This document shows, in pieces, positions 32,358-45,263 of a stretch of DNA of 64,000 nt. The DNA lies in assembly GCF_003634695.1 (NCBI RefSeq), contig NZ_RBWV01000012.1, positions 186,001 through 250,000 of the forward strand, read 5' to 3'. How positions within the stretch are numbered: the first letter of the stretch is position 1; each line of letters starts with the position of its first letter. A program made the translations under genes and the position numbers. The DNA is from Motilibacter peucedani (GTDB lineage Bacteria > Actinomycetota > Actinomycetes > Motilibacterales > Motilibacteraceae). The notes beneath the pieces are model-generated. The model saw nothing but the letters and a program-made list of their open reading frames with translations. It was not told the DNA's origin and ran no database searches.

Positions 32358-34238
<1,881 letters not shown>

Positions 34239-34247
34239 CCCACGACA

Positions 34248-34290
34248 TCGTGGTGCCTGGTCGTCGCTATGGGGCAACCAGGCACCACGA
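34248..34290. terminator. 14-bp perfect hairpin after leuA
   Basis: TCGTGGTGCCTGGT (34248-34261) pairs with ACCAGGCACCACGA (34277-34290) around a 15-nt loop, starting 10 nt after the leuA stop. It has no T-tract. A transcription end for leuA is the simplest reading; a palindromic repeat element is the alternative. Confidence 0.6.
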
Positions 34291-34350
34291 CGCCGTGGAG
34301 GACCGTGTGACGCGCGGCGGTTCGGACACAACGGCTCCGGTTGGGCGTGA

Positions 34351-34356
34351 CAGCAT
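34351..34356 (+). promoter_or_regulatory. Candidate -10 box of recO (leaderless)
   Basis: CAGCAT, one base from TAGCAT, ends 6 nt before GTG 34363; no ribosome site lies between. The same C-first variant precedes dusB and the sigma-70 gene. Confidence 0.4.
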
Positions 34357-34362
34357 GGGGGT

Positions 34363-35094
34363 GTGGGTCTCTACCGTGACGAGGGCGTCGTGCTGCGCAC
34401 CCAGAAGCTGGGCGAGGCCGACCGCATCGTCACGATCCTGACCCGCGGCACCGGCCGCATCCGCGCGGTGGCCAAGGGCGTGCGCCGCACCAGCTCGAAG
34501 TTCGGCGCGCGGCTCGAGCCCTTCATGCACGTCGACCTGCAGCTGCACACGGGCCGTACGTTCGACATCGTCACGCAGGTCGAGACCCTCACGCCGTTCG
34601 CCAGCGCGGTGAGCGGCGACTACGGCCGCTACACAGCCGGCACCGCGATGCTCGAGGCGGTCGAGCGGCTCACCGACGCCGAGCGCGAGCCCTCGGTGCA
34701 GCACTACCTGCTGCTCGTCGGCGCCCTGCGCGCGCTCGCCGCCGGGGAGCACGACCCCGGTCTCGTGCTCGACGCGTTCCTGCTGCGCGCGCTCTCGGTC
34801 GCCGGCTGGGCGCCGAGCTTCGAGGCGTGCGCGCGCTGCGGCGAGGTCGGGCCGCACGGCGCGTTCGCCGTCGCCGCAGGCGGCTCGGTGTGCCCCGACT
34901 GCCGCCCGGTCGGCGCGGCGTCGCCGTCGCCCGCGACCCTCGAACTGCTCGGCGCGCTGCTCACGGGCGACTGGGCGGTCGCCGACTCCGCCGACGACCG
35001 CAGCCGGCGCGAGGGGCACGGGCTGACCGCCGCGTACCTCAACTGGCACCTCGAGCGCGGCCTGCGCTCGCTGCCGCTCGTGGAGCGGGTGTGA
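34363..35094 (+). CDS. recO: DNA repair protein RecO
   Basis: A 243-residue mediator that loads RecA on single-stranded DNA with RecF and RecR. The OB-fold N-terminus reads [20 protein letters not shown] with [20 protein letters not shown]; the helical C-terminal part has a zinc-type CARCG and CPDCRP pair near residues 157 and 179. The start GTG 34363 gives the standard beginning and is probably leaderless. Its TGA overlaps the GTG of uppS (35091-35094). Confidence 0.94.
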
Positions 35095-35885
35095 GGCGTA
35101 CGCCGTCGCCGCCCCCGCCGCACCCGTCGGGAGCCCGGCCCCCTGCCGTCCCGCGTGAGTTCGTGCCGCGCCACGTCGCCGTGGTGATGGACGGCAACGG
35201 GCGCTGGGCCAAGCAGCGCGGGCTGCCCCGCACCAAGGGCCACGAGGCGGGCGAGGCGAGCCTGTTCGACGTCGTCTGCGGCGCGATCGAGATCGGCGTG
35301 ACGCACGTGTCGGCCTACGCCTTCTCGACCGAGAACTGGCGGCGCAGCCCCGACGAGGTGCGCTTCCTCATGCAGTTCAACCGCGACGTGATCCGCCGGC
35401 GGCGCGACGAGATGGACGCCATGGGCGTCCGGGTCCGGTGGGCCGGGCGGCGCCCGCGGCTGTGGAAGAGCGTGATCTCCGAGCTGGAGGTCGCCGAGGC
35501 GCAGACCGCGTCCAACACGACGCTGACGTTGACGATGTGCGTCAACTACGGCGGCCGGGCCGAGATCGCCGACGCGGCCAAGGCCCTGGCGCTCGAGGTC
35601 GCGGCCGGGCGGGTCGACCCGCGCAAGATCGACGAGAAGGTGCTGGCGCGCTACCTCGACGAGCCCGACATGCCCGACGTCGACCTGTTCGTGCGCTCGA
35701 GCGGCGAGCAGCGCACGTCGAACTTCCTGATCTGGCAGTCGGCCTACGCCGAGCTGGTGTTCGCCGACACGCTGTGGCCCGACTTCGACCGTCGCCACCT
35801 GTGGGCGGCGATCGAGGAGTACGCGCGTCGTGACCGCCGCTACGGCGGTGCACTGCCCAACGCGCTGCCGGGGTCGGCGTCCTAG
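35091..35885 (+). CDS. uppS: Isoprenyl (undecaprenyl-type) diphosphate synthase
   Basis: A 264-residue cis-prenyltransferase that makes the polyprenyl carrier for cell-wall synthesis. Motifs: [20 protein letters not shown] (catalytic Asp), [20 protein letters not shown] (then the conserved FLM), and [20 protein letters not shown] with [17 protein letters not shown] 35091 overlaps recO by 4 nt; the first 25 residues ([20 protein letters not shown]) are a variable Pro-rich extension. The recO-uppS coupling is the usual actinobacterial one. Confidence 0.96.
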
Positions 35886-35888
35886 GGC

Positions 35889-36617
35889 TCAGCTGAGCCC
35901 GACCACGAGCCACATGAGGCCCAGGCCGGCGACGGTGCTCATCAGCGTCAGGCGCGAGGGATGGCCGGCGTGCGCCTCCGGCAGGATGTCCGAGGTCGCG
36001 AGGTAGACCAGGAAGCCGATGAAGAAGCCGAGGTAGGCCTTCAGCCAGCCCTCCGGCAGCGTGAACAGCAGCGTCGAGGCGGCCCCCAGCAGCGGTGCCG
36101 TCGCGTCGGCCACCAGCAGGGCGCGGGCCCGCCCAGGCGTGTTGCCGTGCGCGCGCACGATCGCGACGGTGTTGAGGCCGTCGGCGAAGTCGTGGGCGAC
36201 GACCGCCACCGCGACCGTGATGCCGACAGCCTCGCCGGCCTGGAAGCCCAGGCCGATGCCGATGCCGTCGAGGAACGAGTGCGTCACCAGCGCCCCGGCG
36301 GAGACGAGCCCGATGGTGTGGTCGTGGTGTGCGTGCAGGTCGTACTCGTGCTCGTGCCCCGAGTGGATCGCGAGGCTGCGCTCGGTGACGTGGAGCGCGA
36401 GGAAGCCGCCTGCGGCGGTGAGCATCGGCACGGGTACGCCGCCGAACTGCGCCAGGTCGCCGGAGAAGACCTCGGGCAGCAGGTCGAAGAGCACCAGCCC
36501 GAGCAGCACTCCGGCCGTCAGGCCGAGGATCAGGTGCAGACGGTCGGGGTTGCGCAGCGCCACCACGCCGCCGAGCGCGGTGCTGAGCACCGAGGCGATG
36601 GTGAACACGATAACCAT
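35889..36617 (-). CDS. ZIP-family metal transporter
   Basis: A 242-residue membrane protein of about eight hydrophobic segments, probably taking up zinc or another divalent metal. The metal pathway signatures are visible: [17 protein letters not shown] (helix 4) and [17 protein letters not shown] (helix 5). The loop before helix 4 is histidine rich ([16 protein letters not shown]). The start ATG 36617 has no ribosome site, but TACGAT ends 6 nt before it. It converges on uppS with only 3 nt between the stops and is divergent from the ABM-like gene. Confidence 0.9.
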
Positions 36618-36623
36618 GACGAC

Positions 36624-36629
36624 ATCGTA
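36624..36629 (-). promoter_or_regulatory. Candidate -10 box of the ZIP gene (leaderless)
   Basis: TACGAT on the minus strand ends 6 nt before ATG 36617, with no ribosome site. Confidence 0.5.
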
Positions 36630-36648
36630 GGGGTAGCGGTGTGCGAGC

Positions 36649-36942
36649 ATGATCGGCGTGCTGTTCGTGACGCGCCACCGCGTACCCGTGTCCGAGGCGG
36701 CGGCGTTCGCCGACGCCGCCCAGGTCGCGGTCGACGCGCTCGCCGCGCGCCCGGGGTTCGTCTCCGCGCAGGTCGGCCGCTGCCTCGACGACGCCGAGCT
36801 CTGGGTGCTGACCAGCACCTGGGCCACCATCGGGGCCGGGCGTCGGGCGATGAGCTCGGGCGAGACCCGGGTGGCGCTGATGCCGGTCATGGTCAGCGCG
36901 CTCGACGAGCCCTCTGCCTTCGACATCGCGGTGCCGCGCTAG
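36649..36942 (+). CDS. ABM-like small protein (antibiotic biosynthesis monooxygenase fold)
   Basis: A 97-residue protein with the ferredoxin-like dimer pattern of the ABM family: [12 protein letters not shown], a helix [18 protein letters not shown], then [20 protein letters not shown] and a C-terminal strand [18 protein letters not shown]. Similar actinobacterial proteins precede glyS. No catalytic residues are known with certainty for this small group, so function is open. The start ATG 36649 lies 31 nt from the divergent ZIP start. Confidence 0.75.
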
Positions 36943-36992
36943 CCTGCTTGCTTCCCACCCGCCGACCGCCAGCCGGACTGGAGCACCTCCCT

Positions 36993-38378
<1,386 letters not shown>

Positions 38379-38399
38379 CCTTCGGGCTCCGCCGCCCCT

Positions 38400-38458
38400 G
38401 TTTGGCACGATGTGACTTCTTGCCAATGTGATTGGCAAGAAGTCACATCGTGCCAAAC
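38400..38458. repeat. Long perfect palindrome, copy A
   Basis: Two 28-bp arms (38400-38427 and 38431-38458) are perfectly complementary around a 3-nt centre. The arm core begins TTGGCACGATGTGACTTC and ends TTGCCAA. It lies between the glyS stop (22 nt away) and the stop of the convergent Vsr-like gene (12 nt away). The same arm forms copy B upstream of that gene. Confidence 0.9.
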
Positions 38459-38469
38459 GAAGTACGCGT

Positions 38470-39444
38470 TCAGGCTGCTGCGGGGGAGCGTGTGACCACG
38501 ATCGGGGGCCGCGGACGGGCAGCGCCTCGCAGGAGGGTCGCCCTCATCGTCGCGACGAAGGCGTCCGGGTCACGGTCGAGGTCGCTAGGGGCCACGGGCA
38601 CCACCAGCACGCCCGCGGCGGCCATGAGCTTCTGACGGCGTTGGGTGCGCTTGTAGTCCTCGGGGCTGAGGTGCCACTCCATGGAGTCCGACTCGAAGGC
38701 GACGGCTTCTGCGTCGAACCACCCGTCGGGCCGGGCGATGAAGTTGCCCTTCTCGTCCCACAGCGAGACGTTCCACTCGCACCGCCCAAGTCCCGCCCGC
38801 AGCAGCACCTTGCGAGCACGGGCCTCCGAGACCGAGCGGACGCCCGCGGCGACTTCTCGGACGACAGCCCGGGGTATGCCGCTGCCGCGCCTCTGGCACT
38901 CGACCAGCTCCGACTTCAGGTCTGTCACGGTGCAGTGCCCGGCCTGGACCACGGCGGCGACGAGGCTGCGCGTGTCGTCAAGGGGCCGACCTTGCCGGCA
39001 CTCGTCGATGAGCGCCCGAGCGACGGGCGCGCACGGGATGCCACCCAAGAGCCGCGGTTCCGGAACCCGGTACGAGCGTTCGACGAGCACCTCGGGTCTC
39101 GACTGCCGACGCACGGACGCTGCCACGATCACGCGCAAGGCAGCAGGGTGCGGCACTCGGTGAACCCCGGAACGCCTCAGCGCTGCAGCCCCCGTCAGCA
39201 CCGCACCCTCACCGGCGTACTTCACTGCGGCGATCTCACGCTGGTGCGGCGTCGGCGTGCCTGAATGGGCGATGATCACGCCCGGCAGGTGAGCCTGCCA
39301 AGGCCCGCCCACCCGGCAGTGGTAGGTGGCGGTGGACAGCGGGAACCTGAGCGTACGCAGTTCCGAGTGGGTCACCACCCGGTCGTCCCGGGCGAGCAGC
39401 ATGTCGAGGGCGACGGGGTCGTAGCGGAGCGAGCGACGGGGCAT
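38470..39444 (-). CDS. AbiEi-like winged-helix protein with Vsr/DUF559-type nuclease-like domain
   Basis: A 324-residue protein of a group that is abundant and variable in actinobacteria. The N-terminal part reads like an AbiEi-type winged helix (ALDMLLARDDRVVTHSELRT, then VGGPWQAHLPGVII). The C-terminal 90 residues resemble the Vsr/DUF559 endonuclease fold: FIARPDGWFDAEAVAFESDS with MEWHLSPEDYKRTQRRQKLM, giving Asp and Glu at the expected PD...E-x-D spacing. It could be a nuclease or part of a toxin-antitoxin or defence unit, but no partner gene lies beside it. No clear ribosome site precedes ATG 39444. Both flanks carry a near-identical long palindrome. Confidence 0.72.
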   Translation of the reverse strand: MPRRSLRYDPVALDMLLARDDRVVTHSELRTLRFPLSTATYHCRVGGPWQAHLPGVIIAHSGTPTPHQREIAAVKYAGEGAVLTGAAALRRSGVHRVPHPAALRVIVAASVRRQSRPEVLVERSYRVPEPRLLGGIPCAPVARALIDECRQGRPLDDTRSLVAAVVQAGHCTVTDLKSELVECQRRGSGIPRAVVREVAAGVRSVSEARARKVLLRAGLGRCEWNVSLWDEKGNFIARPDGWFDAEAVAFESDSMEWHLSPEDYKRTQRRQKLMAAAGVLVVPVAPSDLDRDPDAFVATMRATLLRGAARPRPPIVVTRSPAAA

Positions 39445-39540
39445 GCCGCATGCTCAGCAGCCGTACGCCGCTCTGCCAACTGGACGACTCGGGCCTGTGG
39501 ACGCCGAGCCGCCTTCGCGCTCGTCGTCCACAGGCCTTGC

Positions 39541-39597
39541 GTTGGCACGATGTGACTTCTTGCCAATCCGACTGGCAAGAAGTCACATCGTGCCAAC
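39541..39597. repeat. Long perfect palindrome, copy B
   Basis: Two 25-bp arms (39541-39565 and 39573-39597) pair perfectly around a 7-nt centre. Twenty-four bases of each arm match copy A at 38400. Copy B lies between the Vsr-like gene start and dusB, so it is not at a gene end. Confidence 0.9.
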
Positions 39598-39636
39598 CAA
39601 GGAGGCGCTCAGAGGCGGGGGAGGGCGCGGCCCTGG

Positions 39637-39642
39637 CAGAAT
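39637..39642 (+). promoter_or_regulatory. Candidate -10 box of dusB (leaderless)
   Basis: CAGAAT ends 7 nt before GTG 39650. ATG 39641 would lie within this box, which favours the GTG. Confidence 0.4.
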
Positions 39643-39649
39643 GGGTGGC

Positions 39650-40792
39650 GTGACGGTGACGGCGGAGCGGGCGCAGCTCGCGCTCGGGGGCCTCACCGTC
39701 GACCCGCCGGTCGTGCTCGCGCCGATGGCGGGGATCACCAACCCGCCCTACCGCCAGCTGTGCCGCGAGGCGGCGGGGGGACGCGGGCTGTTCGTCAGCG
39801 AGATGATCACCAGCCGCGGCCTGGTCGAGGGTGACGCCGAGACGCTGCACCTGCTCGAGCCCGCGCCCGGGGAGTGGCCGCGCAGCGTCCAGCTCTACGG
39901 TGTCGACCCCTACTACGTCGGCGAGGCCGTCCGCATCCTCGTCGACGGCCACGGCGTCGACCACGTCGACCTCAACTTCGGCTGCCCCGTGCCCAAGGTG
40001 ACCAAGCGCGGCGGCGGAGCGGCCCTGCCCTGGAAGCGCACGCTGCTGCGCGACATCCTGCGCGCGGCGGTGAGCGGGGCGGGCGGCCGCGTACCCGTCA
40101 CCATGAAGACCCGCAAGGGGCTCGACGACGACCACCTCACCTACCTCGACGCCGGCCGCATCGCCGCGGAGGAAGGGGCGGCGGCCATCGCGCTGCACGG
40201 GCGCACCGCGATCCAGGGCTACAGCGGCGAGGCCGACTGGGAGTCGGTCGCACGGCTCAAGGAGTCGACCGGCATCCCGGTGCTCGGCAACGGCGACGTG
40301 TGGGAGGCCGACGACGCGCTGCGCATGCTGCGCGAGACCGGCTGCGACGGCGTCGTCGTGGGCCGCGGCTGCCTGGGCCGGCCGTGGCTGTTCGGCCACC
40401 TCGCGGCGGCGTTCGACGGCCAGCCGCCGCCTGCGCAGCCGACCCTCGGCGAGGTCGCGGCGACCGTGCGCCGGCACGCCGAGCTGCTCGCGGAGTGGAC
40501 CGGCGAGGACCGCGGTCTGCGCGAGCTGCGCAAGTTCATGGCGTGGTACTTCAAGGGCTTCCCCGTCGGCTCGGAGACGCGCCAGCAGCTCGGCATGGTG
40601 TCGAGCTTCGCCGAGCTCGACGCGCTGCTCGCCCGGCTCGACCCCGACGAGCCGTTCCCCGTCGCCGAGCTCGGCCGCCCGCGCGGGCGCACCAGCCCGC
40701 AGAAGCGGCTCGCGTTGCCGGACGGCTGGCTCGACAGCGAGTGGAGCGGCCTGCCGTCGGCCGACGCCGAGCTGTCCGTCTCCGGCGGCTGA
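39650..40792 (+). CDS. dusB: tRNA-dihydrouridine synthase (Dus)
   Basis: A 380-residue FMN enzyme that reduces uridine to dihydrouridine in tRNA. Motifs: VVLAPMAGITNPPYRQLCRE at the N-terminus, SVQLYGVDPYYVGEAV, VDLNFGCPVPKVTKRGGGAA (catalytic Cys region), VTMKTRKG, IALHGRTAIQGYSGEADW and PVLGNGDVWEADDA with GRGCLGRPWLF (FMN-binding). The start is uncertain: ATG 39641 is in frame, but no ribosome site precedes either, and a CAGAAT box 7 nt before GTG 39650 fits a leaderless start. It is followed 5 nt later by dgt. Confidence 0.94.
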   Translation: MTVTAERAQLALGGLTVDPPVVLAPMAGITNPPYRQLCREAAGGRGLFVSEMITSRGLVEGDAETLHLLEPAPGEWPRSVQLYGVDPYYVGEAVRILVDGHGVDHVDLNFGCPVPKVTKRGGGAALPWKRTLLRDILRAAVSGAGGRVPVTMKTRKGLDDDHLTYLDAGRIAAEEGAAAIALHGRTAIQGYSGEADWESVARLKESTGIPVLGNGDVWEADDALRMLRETGCDGVVVGRGCLGRPWLFGHLAAAFDGQPPPAQPTLGEVAATVRRHAELLAEWTGEDRGLRELRKFMAWYFKGFPVGSETRQQLGMVSSFAELDALLARLDPDEPFPVAELGRPRGRTSPQKRLALPDGWLDSEWSGLPSADAELSVSGG

Positions 40793-40797
40793 GCCGG

Positions 40798-42042
40798 GTG
40801 CTGCCGGGCTACCTCGCGCACGACGCCGAGCGCTGGGTCGACGACCCGCCCCGCGATCCCGGCCGGTCGCCGTTCGCCCGGGACCGCGCACGGGTCGTGC
40901 ACGCGAGCGGACTGCGCCGGCTCGGCGCCAAGACCCAGGTAGTGCACCCGTGGAGCGACGACTTCGTCCGCAACCGGCTCACCCACTCGCTCGAGGTCGC
41001 CCAAGTGGGTCGTGAGCTGGGCCGGGCCTTGGGCTGCGACCCCGACGTCGTCGAGACCGCCTGCCTGGCCCACGACCTCGGTCACCCGCCGTTCGGCCAC
41101 AACGGCGAGCGCGCGCTCGACGAGGTCGCGGCGGGCATCGGCGGGTTCGAGGGCAACGCCCAGACCCTGCGCATGCTGACGCGCCTCGAGCCCAAGGTCT
41201 TCGCTCCCGACGGCCGCAGCGTCGGGCTCAACCTCACGCGAGCCAGCCTCGACGCGGCGACCAAGTACCCGTGGTTCGCCACCGACTCCTACGCCGCGCG
41301 GGGCAAGTACGGCGCCTACGCCGACGACGCCGACGTCTTCGCCTGGCTGCGGCAGGGCGCGCCCCACCGCGCGCGCTGCATCGAGGCGCAGGTCATGGAC
41401 TGGGCCGACGACGTGGCCTACTCGGTCCACGACCTCGAGGACGGCCTGCAGGGCGGGCGCATCGACTTCCGGGCGCTCGCCGACGCCGACGAGGTGGCGC
41501 AGGTCGCGCGGGTGGCGTGCGACGCGTACGCCCCTGGCTCCGACCCCGCGGCCGTGGCCGCAGCGCTGGGCCGCCTCACCGCCCTGCCCGAGTGGCCGGC
41601 CTCCTGCGACGGCAGCCGTCGCGACCTCGCGGCGCTCAAGCGCCTGACCAGCGCGCTCATCGGCCGCTTCTGCCTCGCTGCCGAGCGCGCGACGCGCGCG
41701 CAGGCGGGCGACGGCCCGCTGACCCGGTACGCCTGCGACCTCCACGTCCCCGACCCCACCGTCCTGGAGGTGGCGGCGCTCAAGGCCGTCGCCGCGACCT
41801 ACGTCATGCGCGCCGAGGGCCGCGCGGCCTCGCTCGAGCGCCAGCGCACGGTGCTCGCGGAGATCGCCGCAGCCTGGCTGGAGCGCCCGGAGCTGCTCGC
41901 TCGTTCGGCACAGGAGGACTGGGCCGCCAGTGCCGACGACGCTGCCCGGACCCGGGTCGTCGTCGACGCCGTCGCGTCGCTGACCGACACCTCGGCGATC
42001 CAGATTTCTGCCTCGCTGCGCGGGTCGGAACCGCAGAAGTAG
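40798..42042 (+). CDS. dgt: Deoxyguanosinetriphosphate triphosphohydrolase-like HD protein
   Basis: A 414-residue HD-domain enzyme that removes triphosphate from dNTPs, likely limiting nucleotide pools. The HD signature is complete: NRLTHSLEVAQVGREL, HDLGHPPFGHNGERALDEVA (about residue 92) and VMDWADDVAYSVHDLEDGLQ. N-terminal FARDRARVVHASGLRRLGAK is conserved in the dGTPase-like group. GTG 40798 is the start, 5 nt after dusB. dusB-dgt-dnaG is a conserved actinobacterial order; here a secreted-protein gene is inserted between dgt and dnaG. Confidence 0.94.
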   Translation: MLPGYLAHDAERWVDDPPRDPGRSPFARDRARVVHASGLRRLGAKTQVVHPWSDDFVRNRLTHSLEVAQVGRELGRALGCDPDVVETACLAHDLGHPPFGHNGERALDEVAAGIGGFEGNAQTLRMLTRLEPKVFAPDGRSVGLNLTRASLDAATKYPWFATDSYAARGKYGAYADDADVFAWLRQGAPHRARCIEAQVMDWADDVAYSVHDLEDGLQGGRIDFRALADADEVAQVARVACDAYAPGSDPAAVAAALGRLTALPEWPASCDGSRRDLAALKRLTSALIGRFCLAAERATRAQAGDGPLTRYACDLHVPDPTVLEVAALKAVAATYVMRAEGRAASLERQRTVLAEIAAAWLERPELLARSAQEDWAASADDAARTRVVVDAVASLTDTSAIQISASLRGSEPQK

Positions 42043-42162
42043 GCGCAGAGCAGGAAAATTCAGCTCGGGAGACAACCCGGGCACGACCCCGGCGTCTCCC
42101 TCCGTGTGTCAGTCGAAATTCCCCTGCGCGTCCTCCCAGACGTGCTTCGAAGGAGGAGCCCC
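42043..42162 (+). other. Leader region with hairpin before the secreted Thr-Pro protein
   Basis: This 120-nt spacer is less GC-rich than its surroundings (AGGAAAATTCAG, then CGAAATTCC). GGGAGAC (42067-42073) pairs with GTCTCCC (42094-42100), and CCCGGG and CCCCGG lie in the loop. It ends with AAGGAGG before GTG 42163. Structured leader or promoter region; no known riboswitch matched by eye. Confidence 0.45.
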
Positions 42163-43350
42163 GTGCATCTCGGACGCAAGGCCATGCTGGCCGCCATCCC
42201 GACCCTCGCGGTCGCCGCGACCCCGCTGCTGGTCGGCTCGGGCAGCGCTGCTGCCGGTACCCCCGCCCCGGCGCCCGCGCACACCTCGGCCGTCATCCCG
42301 GGCATCCCGCGCACGCTCTACGTGACCACGGCCGACAACCGGGTCGAGGTCGCGCCGCTGCTCTACCCGGGCCGCTACCTCGTGCAGCTGCGCACGCGCG
42401 ACACCAAGCCCAGCCGCCTGCAGGTCGTGCAGCCGCTGACCCCGGCCTACACCAAGACCCGCTTCGTGCTCGACTGGGCGCGCTACGAGGCCGACGTCAA
42501 GGCCGGCCAGACCGCCGCAGCGCAGGCCGAGCTCGACAACCTCAACCGGCAGGTGCGCTTCCTGGGCGGCACCTCCGTCGCCCCGGGCGGCCTCGGCGCG
42601 TTCGGCGACTACTTCTCGCGCGGCGACTACTGGTTCTTCGAGGACCGCTACGAGGGTCCGACCCACGCCAACCGCATCGTCACGATGAAGGTCAAGGGCG
42701 GCGTCGCGTCGGTCAACCACTTCGCTGCGCCCGCGGCGACGCTCGCCTACCGCGGCGAGGCCCTGACGCTCACCCAGACGACGCTGCCGCGCAACGGCTG
42801 GCTGATGTCGTCCAACGTGGCGGGCGGCACCCGTGGCTGGACCGTCTGGAAGCTGCCGACGACCGGCATGTCCGAGGCAGCGGTGGCCGAGTGCATCGGC
42901 GCTCCCGCTCCCGCGGCGACACCCACGCCGACGCCGACCCACACGACCACGCCGACGCCCACCCCCACGCCGACGCCGACCCCGACGCCGACCCCCACCC
43001 CGACGCCGACGCCGACCCCCACCACGACGGCAACGGCCCACGCCGCGGCGGTGGCTGCCGACGTGACGCCGACGCCGACCCCCACCCCGACGCCGACCCC
43101 CACGCCGACGCCGACGCCGACGCCGACCCCCACCCCGACCCCGACGGTGACGCCCACCCCGACGCCTGCCGGCCCGGGCAACTGCGAGCCGCAGTTCGTC
43201 TCGGCCACGGGCCTCGACAGCGTCGGAGTCGGTACGCCGTTCTACTTCTCGCTGACCGCCGGTGACTACGTCGTCGCCGACAACCGCAGCGACAAGGCCG
43301 GCTCCTCGCCGGTGCTCCGCGGCCTCTACGCCCGGTTCACCGTCAAGTAG
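42163..43350 (+). CDS. Secreted protein with long Thr-Pro repeat linkers
   Basis: A 395-residue exported protein I cannot place in a family. GTG 42163 follows a perfect AAGGAGG site. A signal peptide ([20 protein letters not shown]) ends near residue 29. The N-terminal domain (to about 245) has [20 protein letters not shown] and a helix of an Ala/Gln type ([19 protein letters not shown]). Two (TP)n linkers (about 250-285 and 303-333) flank [16 protein letters not shown] short C-terminal domain has [20 protein letters not shown]. The layout suggests a wall-spanning linker between two folded parts; a role at the surface is inference. Confidence 0.8.
42914..43167. repeat. CCGACG/CCCACC coding repeat (Thr-Pro linkers)
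   Basis: Imperfect tandem hexamers of the type CCGACG and CCCACC encode alternating Thr and Pro in two blocks separated by about 45 bases. It is in frame and likely length-variable between strains. Confidence 0.85.
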
Positions 43351-43409
43351 CTCGACCAGCTCGTCCACAGCAGGGACGGTGCCGCCTCGGCACCGGCCCT
43401 CGCTGCGCC

Positions 43410-43415
43410 TAGACT
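43410..43415 (+). promoter_or_regulatory. Candidate -10 box of dnaG (leaderless)
   Basis: TAGACT ends 6 nt before GTG 43422 and no ribosome site lies between. Confidence 0.5.
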
Positions 43416-43421
43416 TCGGGC

Positions 43422-45263
43422 GTGGCGGGCCGGATTCGTGACGAGGACGTGGCCCTCGTCAAGGAGCGCGTCAACATCGCCGACGTGATCGGCGAGCGGG
43501 TCACCCTCCGCAACGCGGGCGGGGGCAACTTCAAGGGGCTCTGCCCCTTCCACGACGAGAAGACGCCCTCGATGTCGGTGCGGCCGAGCCTCGGCACGTT
43601 CCACTGCTTCGGCTGCGGCGTCGGCGGCGACGTCATCTCCTTCGTCACGCAGCTCGACTCGCTCTCGTTCGCCGAGGCGGTCGAGCAGCTCGCCGGCCGG
43701 GTGGGCATCGCGCTGCGCTACACCGACGGCGAGACGGCCGACCCCCGCCTCGCCGGCCAGCGCAGCCGCCTGATGGAGGCCAACAAGGCCGCCGCCGAGT
43801 TCTACGCCGAGCGGCTGCTGCTGGCCGACGCGCTGCCCGGGCGCCGGTTCCTCTCCGAGCGCGGCTTCGACCGTGCGGCGGCAGAGATGTTCGGGGTCGG
43901 CTTCGCGCCGCGCGACGGCGAGGCGCTGGTGCGGCACCTGCGCGGCCGCGGCGCGCGCGACGACGACCTGGTCGCCGCCGGCCTGGCCGGCACCGGGTCG
44001 CGCGGCCTCTACGACCGCTTCCGCGGCCGGCTGCTCTGGCCGATCCGCGACTCCGCCGGGGCCGTGCTGGGCTTCGGCGCGCGACGCATCTTCGACGACG
44101 ACCGCATCGAGGCGAAGTACCTCAACACCTCCGAGACGCCGGTCTACAAGAAGTCCTCGGTGCTCTACGGCCTCGACCTCGCCCGCCGCGAGATCGCCAA
44201 GCGCTCGCAGGCCGTCGTCGTCGAGGGCTACACCGACGTCATGGCCGCGCACCTGTCGGGGGTGCCGACCGCGGTGGCCACCTGCGGCACCGCCTTCGGC
44301 GAGGACCACGCCCGGGTGCTGCGCCGGCTGCTGCTCGTCGACAACGAGCTGCGCGGCGAGGTCGTGTTCACCTTCGACGGCGACGAGGCCGGCCGGCGCG
44401 CCGCGCTCAAGGCGTTCGAGCTCGAGGAGAGCTTCGCGACCCAGACCTTCGTGGCCGTCGAGCCCGACGGGCTCGACCCGTGCGACGTCCGCCTCCGCAA
44501 GGGCCCGGAGGCCGTGCGCGAGCTGGTCAGCCGCCGCGTACCCCTCTTCGAGTTCGCGATCCGCTCCGCGGTCGCGCGCTACGACGTCGACAGCGCCGAG
44601 GGCCGCACCGCCGCGGCGCGCGCCGGCATGGAGGTCGTGCGCCAGATCCGCACCGTCGCGCTGCGCACCGAGTACGCCCGGCGCCTCGCCGGCCTCATCG
44701 GCCTGAGCAACCCCGACGAGCTCGTCGCCCGCGCGGGCGGCACGCTGGGCAACGCCCGGCGCCACGTCGCCGCTCCTGCACCGGGCGGCGGCCCGACCGT
44801 GTTCGTGCAGCGCGAGGCGCTCAAGCTGCTGCTGCAGTCGCCGCAGGCCGTCGGCAGCGTGCTCGACGGGCTCGACCTCGACGCCTTCGACGACCCTGCC
44901 TACGCCGCGGTGGCCGCTGCGGTCTCGACCGCCCGCGCGGGCGGGGCGCCGGCCGGCGGGCCGGTCTGGGTCTCGGCGGTCACGGAGGCCGCCGGCGACG
45001 ACGAGACGGTGCGCGGTCTGGTCGCCGCGCTGGCCGTCGAGGCGCCGTTCGCCGACGCGACGCAGCTGGCGCGCTACGCGACCGAGGTGTTCGCCAAGCT
45101 GGAGATGTACGCGGTGGAGCGTTCGCTCGCCGACGTCTTCCGCCGCATGCAGCAGCTGGAGTCCTCGGGCGACACCGCCCGCCTGCCCGAGGTGTCGAGC
45201 GAGTACCTCCGGCTGGAGACGCGGCGCAGGACGCTGCGTGAGCGGTCGATGGGCGAAGCGTGA
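43422..45263 (+). CDS. dnaG: DNA primase DnaG
   Basis: A 613-residue primase that makes RNA primers at the replication fork. The zinc-binding domain shows CPFHDEKTPSMSVRPSLGTF with CFGCGVGGD (about residues 41-66). The Toprim core has VVVEGYTDVMAAHLSGV (about 265), EDHARVLRRLLLVDN and FTFDGDEAGRRAALKAFELE (about 318), with DPCDVRLRKG. The C-terminal helicase-interaction part follows (LKLLLQSPQAVGSVLDGLDL). GTG 43422 is the conserved MAGRIRDEDV start and appears leaderless. The sigma-70 gene follows after 96 nt, resembling the classic primase-sigma arrangement. Confidence 0.97.
   Translation: MAGRIRDEDVALVKERVNIADVIGERVTLRNAGGGNFKGLCPFHDEKTPSMSVRPSLGTFHCFGCGVGGDVISFVTQLDSLSFAEAVEQLAGRVGIALRYTDGETADPRLAGQRSRLMEANKAAAEFYAERLLLADALPGRRFLSERGFDRAAAEMFGVGFAPRDGEALVRHLRGRGARDDDLVAAGLAGTGSRGLYDRFRGRLLWPIRDSAGAVLGFGARRIFDDDRIEAKYLNTSETPVYKKSSVLYGLDLARREIAKRSQAVVVEGYTDVMAAHLSGVPTAVATCGTAFGEDHARVLRRLLLVDNELRGEVVFTFDGDEAGRRAALKAFELEESFATQTFVAVEPDGLDPCDVRLRKGPEAVRELVSRRVPLFEFAIRSAVARYDVDSAEGRTAAARAGMEVVRQIRTVALRTEYARRLAGLIGLSNPDELVARAGGTLGNARRHVAAPAPGGGPTVFVQREALKLLLQSPQAVGSVLDGLDLDAFDDPAYAAVAAAVSTARAGGAPAGGPVWVSAVTEAAGDDETVRGLVAALAVEAPFADATQLARYATEVFAKLEMYAVERSLADVFRRMQQLESSGDTARLPEVSSEYLRLETRRRTLRERSMGEA

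Follow-up and report, generated by a model that had tools for sequence, protein, structure and literature searches.

Two near-identical palindromes flank a predicted nuclease gene

The window (the whole 64-kb stretch of DNA that was analysed) carries a predicted nuclease gene that is bracketed by two palindromes and lies between two genes which, from their sequences, we take to be glyS and a dusB-like gene. The features of the locus are as follows.

36993..38378, + strand: glyS (glycyl-tRNA synthetase), by similarity to relatives; conserved neighbour marking the fixed locus
38400..38458, no strand: palindrome copy A, with 28-bp perfect arms and a 3-nt centre
38470..39444, - strand: nuclease gene, 324 aa, with a predicted AbiEi-like DNA-binding module (about residues 6-199) and a predicted Vsr/EDxHD-fold nuclease domain (about residues 202-309)
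39541..39597, no strand: palindrome copy B, with 27/28-bp arms
39650..40792, + strand: dusB-like tRNA-dihydrouridine synthase gene, named from its sequence; conserved neighbour on the other side

The palindrome is 55 bp long and almost perfect, with the form TTGGCACGATGTGACTYCTTGCCAA-TCNGA-TTGGCAAGRAGTCACATCGTGCCAA. Copies A and B share 52 of the 55 core bases. The near-identical palindromes bracketing the gene that the initial annotation had described are real and far from chance. Copy B can be paired either over 25 perfect base pairs with a 7-nt centre or over 27/28 bp with a 1-nt centre. The two copies are by far the longest hairpins of the window, the next longest perfect arm being 13 bp, and the GC content of copy A is 47%, against 73% for the window. 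Copy A is located 11 nt beyond the stop codon of the nuclease gene, between the convergent ends of this gene and glyS. Copy B is located 96 nt 5′ of the nuclease gene start codon, and about 53 nt separate it from dusB; since this region is divergent, copy B is not at any gene end, in agreement with the initial annotation. No T-run terminator (a stem and then a T-run) was found between 33000 and 45000. An unrelated second hairpin (GGCCTGTGGAC..GTCCACAGGCC, 17/18 bp) is present at 39492-39536, between the nuclease gene start and copy B, and could be an operator or a terminator. Elsewhere in the window, an ORF at 42106-43350, 3′ of a dgt-like gene, carries a long Pro-Thr dipeptide repeat (PTPTPT..), and its product is probably a cell-surface or secreted protein.

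The protein is predicted to join an AbiEi-like module to a Vsr-like nuclease domain

The 324-aa protein was modelled by AlphaFold2 with a mean pLDDT of 93.9. Residues 6-199 of the model matched the AbiEi antitoxin 6y8q (Z 11.8, rmsd 5.3), and residues 202-309 matched the catalytic domain of the homing endonuclease I-Bth0305I (Z 12.4), 3hrl (Z 11.4) and Vsr (Z 10.9). These structural matches agree with the Vsr/AbiEi-like gene recognised earlier. The Pfam matches were AbiEi_4, MTES_1575 REase and DUF559 (by member), the PADLOC profile match was AbiEi, and no Y1 domain was found in the protein. In an alignment of 31 homologs, E207 and H258 were invariant, while D240, E251, N225 and R270 were nearly invariant. 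The modelled Vsr-like fold and the conserved E/D/H residues together place the C-terminal domain, as predicted, in the Vsr/EDxHD superfamily. AbiEi proteins are known to bind to inverted repeats within the promoter from which they are expressed, and a DNA-binding module of this kind joined to a nuclease would fit a protein that acts on palindromes. The earlier suggestion that the palindromes are nuclease targets is borne out to the extent that the predicted fold would suit targets of the encoded winged-helix nuclease. The nuclease gene (38470-39444) had weak codon-usage scores in comparison with its neighbours, although the locus is old and conserved.

The window palindrome is dispersed in its own genome

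A search of the 4.19-Mb genome for the palindrome arm with at most 3 mismatches gave 37 matches, which were resolved into 20 loci, while the reversed-pattern control in the same genome gave none. Eighteen further copies were thus located beyond the window. Nineteen of the 20 copies were outside called genes, and the gene call at the twentieth (L046) is uncertain. By setting, 10 copies were in convergent gaps, 6 in tandem gaps and 3 in divergent gaps (B, L048 and L051); for comparison, among 101 gaps of at least 40 bp obtained by similar gene calling, 18 were convergent, and about 16% of the DNA was noncoding. The copy about 3 kb beyond the right end of the window (L043:3072-3126), between convergent genes, carries a GTGCC variant on both arms.

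Pairing was kept in 95.4% of the stem cells over the 20 copies, and their covariation score was equalled in 1 of 500 shuffles. Changes on both arms were seen among the copies (A-T to C-G and C-G to T-A), and the covariation may have come from upkeep of the hairpin, arm-to-arm correction or common descent. No GTAG or CGTC tag was found at the repeat end in the 20 aligned copies. An origin of the palindrome from a tRNA or an Rfam family was tested and rejected. We also rejected the idea that the palindrome is tied to the gene within this genome: the copies do not always bracket such genes, 18 of the 20 being away from any homolog, and no flanking palindromes were found at the two weak paralogs that this genome carries.

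The palindrome sequence was absent from all 147 relatives searched, a congener among them. The exact arm had one match, an unrelated one, in a scan of 84,980 species genomes, and none was found in viral contigs. Because of this single unrelated match, the sequence search by itself suggested a private repeat, and the pattern described below came to light when hairpins were sought at orthologous loci.

Orthologs in the family are accompanied by palindromes of their own

An ortholog of the nuclease gene (49-52% identity) was found beside glyS in all four family relatives (G001-G004). The gap between glyS and the gene contained in each of them a long hairpin whose sequence was unlike the window palindrome (G001, GAACAAGGGCACCCAGT..; G003, CCGCAGAAGGCGCCC..; G002 and G004, ..GAATGCCGCATTC..), and each of these hairpins was dispersed in its own genome. 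Copies were also present on the far side of the nuclease gene in G001, G002 and G003, and were found on one side only in G004. At L103:6127-6306 in G004, the nuclease gene is followed by a tandem array of four or five half-copies of the palindrome arm. At many sites in the congener G001 (L099, L151-L163), two hairpins form a doublet with a distance of 60-85 bp between them, an arrangement that resembles the known REP clusters. G003 carries two paralogs, with 49% and 43% identity to the window protein, and the palindromes that bracket each of them belong to a separate family, unrelated to the other; both families are dispersed. As far as sequence comparison can tell, these paralogs are the clearest sign that gene and palindrome are paired.

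Two findings literally go against the tie between palindrome and gene proposed in the initial annotation, namely that the repeat is dispersed and that relatives carry the gene without the window sequence. The link nevertheless survives, because the corresponding positions in the relatives are occupied by a palindrome of another sequence. The earlier reading is thus partly supported, in that the palindromes belong with this gene family. Since the gene occupies one and the same place in relatives and has differently worded palindromes there, gene and palindromes appear to evolve together.

Matched flanking repeats occur at most homologs in the class

Across 40 homolog loci from the whole class, the density of hairpins within 600 bp of the gene was 5.6 times that farther off. 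We then compared the 350 bp upstream with the 350 bp downstream of the gene at 61 homolog loci and in 201 shifted controls. The flank scores of 43 of the 61 loci were at or above the 99th percentile of the controls, a threshold that about 1% of the controls reach, and 40 loci exceeded the control maximum; about 30% of homologs were without matched flanks by this 350-bp test. Scores of at least 21 were obtained for 39 of 61 same-locus comparisons versus 71 of 3638 cross-locus pairs, some of the latter probably being shared coding ends of glyS or dusB, and this difference indicates that the two flanks of a locus carry matching repeats, which mostly differ from one lineage to another. The high flank score of G058 was due to a GC-rich tandem repeat and not to a palindrome. 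The layout was constant in several lineages, with one palindrome about 100 nt upstream and another 1-15 nt downstream of the gene. At L109, L126, L137, L138, L141, L189 and L190, the palindrome centres recur across lineages (CTATAG, CCATAG, CCAATAGG, CCTATGG) and the arms differ; judged from their sequences, these centres are perhaps a shared recognition core.

The flank palindromes were also searched in their own genomes, where the counts are of matches, a palindrome often being scored once per strand, so that loci are fewer (G069, 105; G212, 68; G003, 65; G031, 62; G061, 57; G039, 42; G257, 35; G045, 34; G018, 29; G090, 29; G266, 27; G157, 14; G101, 12). The queries were concatenated, and a few matches may therefore belong to the palindrome of another lineage or, in a second search, to control hairpins. 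Flank palindromes were multicopy in at least 10 further genera. For the second search, the loci had been chosen because of a protein match or because their flanks were similar. Seven genomes were queried with flank repeats, and these were multicopy in every one of them; G023 served only for a control hairpin. The control hairpins from G003 and G023 had no match but themselves among the matches listed.

The gene is fixed at one locus and its palindromes turn over

In eight families (f1, f6, f15, f21, f25, f38, f40 and f41), the gene had glyS on one side and dusB on the other, or had dusB as a neighbour where the contig or the stretch examined came to an end. A homolog was present on one plasmid record only, and none was found in phage records. 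Judged from this distribution, the gene is chromosomal and vertically inherited, and is not mobile now; the small mobile or defence island envisaged earlier does not agree with a locus kept in this way. The nuclease gene of G003 (L102:3122-4090) is inverted relative to glyS in comparison with the other family members and is still bracketed by palindromes; this inversion perhaps arose by recombination between them.

The palindromes turn over faster than the gene, as shown by comparison of genomes sampled one per species. At six sites of this genome (G000) with both flanks syntenic in the congener G001, no such palindrome was present in G001, and alignments of the six orthologous gaps, which have diverged, gave no clean junction from which a target duplication or an exact insertion end could be read. 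At a few other places each species has its own palindrome, as in the glyS gap and at L059 of G000, which corresponds to L181 of G004. Likewise, L149 and L150 of G001 are beside the same genes as L172 and L173 of G003, each with its own palindrome. Replacement in place fits these shared sites as well as insertion does, and the turnover of sites between congeners supports gain and loss of palindromes.

Comparison with REP/RAYT and other known systems

In REP/RAYT systems, a vertically inherited chromosomal gene, which is not found on plasmids, is flanked by REPs, and the REPs are dispersed, often near gene 3′ ends, with palindrome sequences that are species-specific (PMC8049555, PMC3733652, PMC6006769). 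The system described here shares with such a REPtron the palindrome-flanked gene, the intergenic dispersal of the same palindromes and the vertical inheritance of the gene. It differs in that the enzyme is predicted to be an AbiEi-like module joined to a Vsr/EDxHD-fold nuclease, and not an HUH/Y1 tyrosine transposase, in that the GTAG/CGTC tag is absent, and in that the palindromes are longer (about 45-60 bp). PF01797 (Y1/HUH, RAYT) had no match in 15 palindrome-bearing genomes, while the control genomes were positive. Because membership fails on the defining enzyme, we consider it best named a REPtron-like system with an unrelated nuclease. CGTC-tagged REPs have been reported without a dedicated transposase (PMC3733652); they too are dispersed intergenic palindromes with no HUH partner gene flanked by them, but their sequence and taxa differ, and a partner gene is evident here.

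The C-terminal domain resembles I-Bth0305I and Vsr in its predicted fold and in its conserved acidic and His residues. The gene described here differs from theirs in that no intron contains it, no dcm methylase gene adjoins it at this locus, palindromes bracket it, and its product carries an AbiEi-like module in addition to the nuclease domain. The N-terminal module resembles AbiEi antitoxins of the type IV toxin-antitoxin system AbiE in fold and profile matches, but no AbiEii toxin gene adjoins it and a nuclease domain is added. No earlier description of such a system was found in the literature searched, in which subscription papers and preprints were thinly covered, and a prior report is possible. 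The organisation has a known analogue in REP/RAYT, and the enzyme has none.

A candidate two-part system of a nuclease gene and cognate palindromes

By sequence comparison we observed the bracketing of the gene, the dispersal of the palindromes, their lineage-specific sequences, the fixed locus, the conserved catalytic-type residues, the lack of Y1/HUH and the turnover of sites. Our preferred reading, to which we assign a probability of about two in three, is a genomic system of two parts that operates in the manner of REP/RAYT and is composed of a vertically inherited nuclease gene and dispersed cognate palindromes, two of which bracket the gene. The protein very probably recognises its palindromes; whether it also actively spreads them is evenly balanced. 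We see even odds, too, for the broader proposal that, across the class, palindromes throughout the genome are recognised and propagated (by copying, movement or conversion) by a Vsr/EDxHD-type nuclease and not by an HUH transposase. In the proposed mechanism, the AbiEi-like module would recognise the palindrome and the nuclease would cut or nick it, either in an extruded cruciform or in a hairpin of single-stranded DNA, and the repair or strand transfer that follows would lead palindromes to spread, be replaced and be homogenised. Copies would persist in intergenic regions, chiefly in those that separate gene ends, and the gene's own flanking pair would keep gene and sites in step.

The protein might instead be mainly a DNA-binding regulator or architectural protein, with the palindromes as operators or chromosome-structuring sites that were spread by ordinary recombination or selection, and with the nuclease domain otherwise employed. 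The match of the N-terminal 200 residues to an AbiEi antitoxin, the general binding habit of AbiEi proteins and the position of copy B in the promoter region of the nuclease gene are all in line with this, but for half of the copies, which are located between convergent genes, there is no promoter on which an operator could act, and neither the family-wide conservation of nuclease-type residues nor the quick turnover of sites is as expected, so that we regard it as unlikely. Somewhat less likely still is a present or former insertion-sequence-like element, whose ends spread as MITE-like derivatives and whose glyS-dusB copy is old and domesticated. The constant layout in several lineages resembles such an element, as do the several paralogs in genomes such as G061 and G003, some of them palindrome-bracketed; the fixation of the gene at one locus in eight families, its near absence from plasmids and phages, and the fact that within genomes most palindromes stand by themselves, with no gene, speak against it. 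A role in self-recognition or genome defence, in which the nuclease would attack DNA and the chromosomal palindromes would mark or protect self DNA, is in our view quite improbable: the nuclease is fused to a defence-associated AbiEi module whose profiles came from a defence library, but no partner toxin or methylase is beside the gene (its neighbours are glyS and dusB), the locus is fixed and is not a defence island, and a genome may have as few as 10-20 sites. An explanation by intrinsic terminators, or by inert repeats favouring gene ends, whose position beside the gene would be a coincidence, is hardly credible, since the 10 of 20 copies between convergent genes are outweighed by the lack of T-run terminators in 33000-45000, by copy B and two other copies in divergent gaps, by matched flanks at most homologs against about 1% of controls at the threshold, and by other G003 and G023 hairpins that matched only themselves among the matches listed.

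Bacterial dispersed palindromic repeats have so far been linked with a single type of enzyme, the HUH RAYTs, and some families lack a known partner. If true, the class-wide reading would make the nuclease the second enzyme type, of independent evolutionary origin, by which bacteria have arrived at REP-like repeats. Both the agent that spreads the palindromes and the reason for which hosts retain them can be tested with purified protein and short DNAs, for which the paralogs and species supply ready-made matched and mismatched pairs of enzyme and site. A common, functionally uncharacterised gene type (AbiEi-like module with a DUF559/MTES_1575-like nuclease) is now tied to its own palindromes, and this points to a possible role for many of the genes that at present carry an AbiEi-family or DUF559 annotation.
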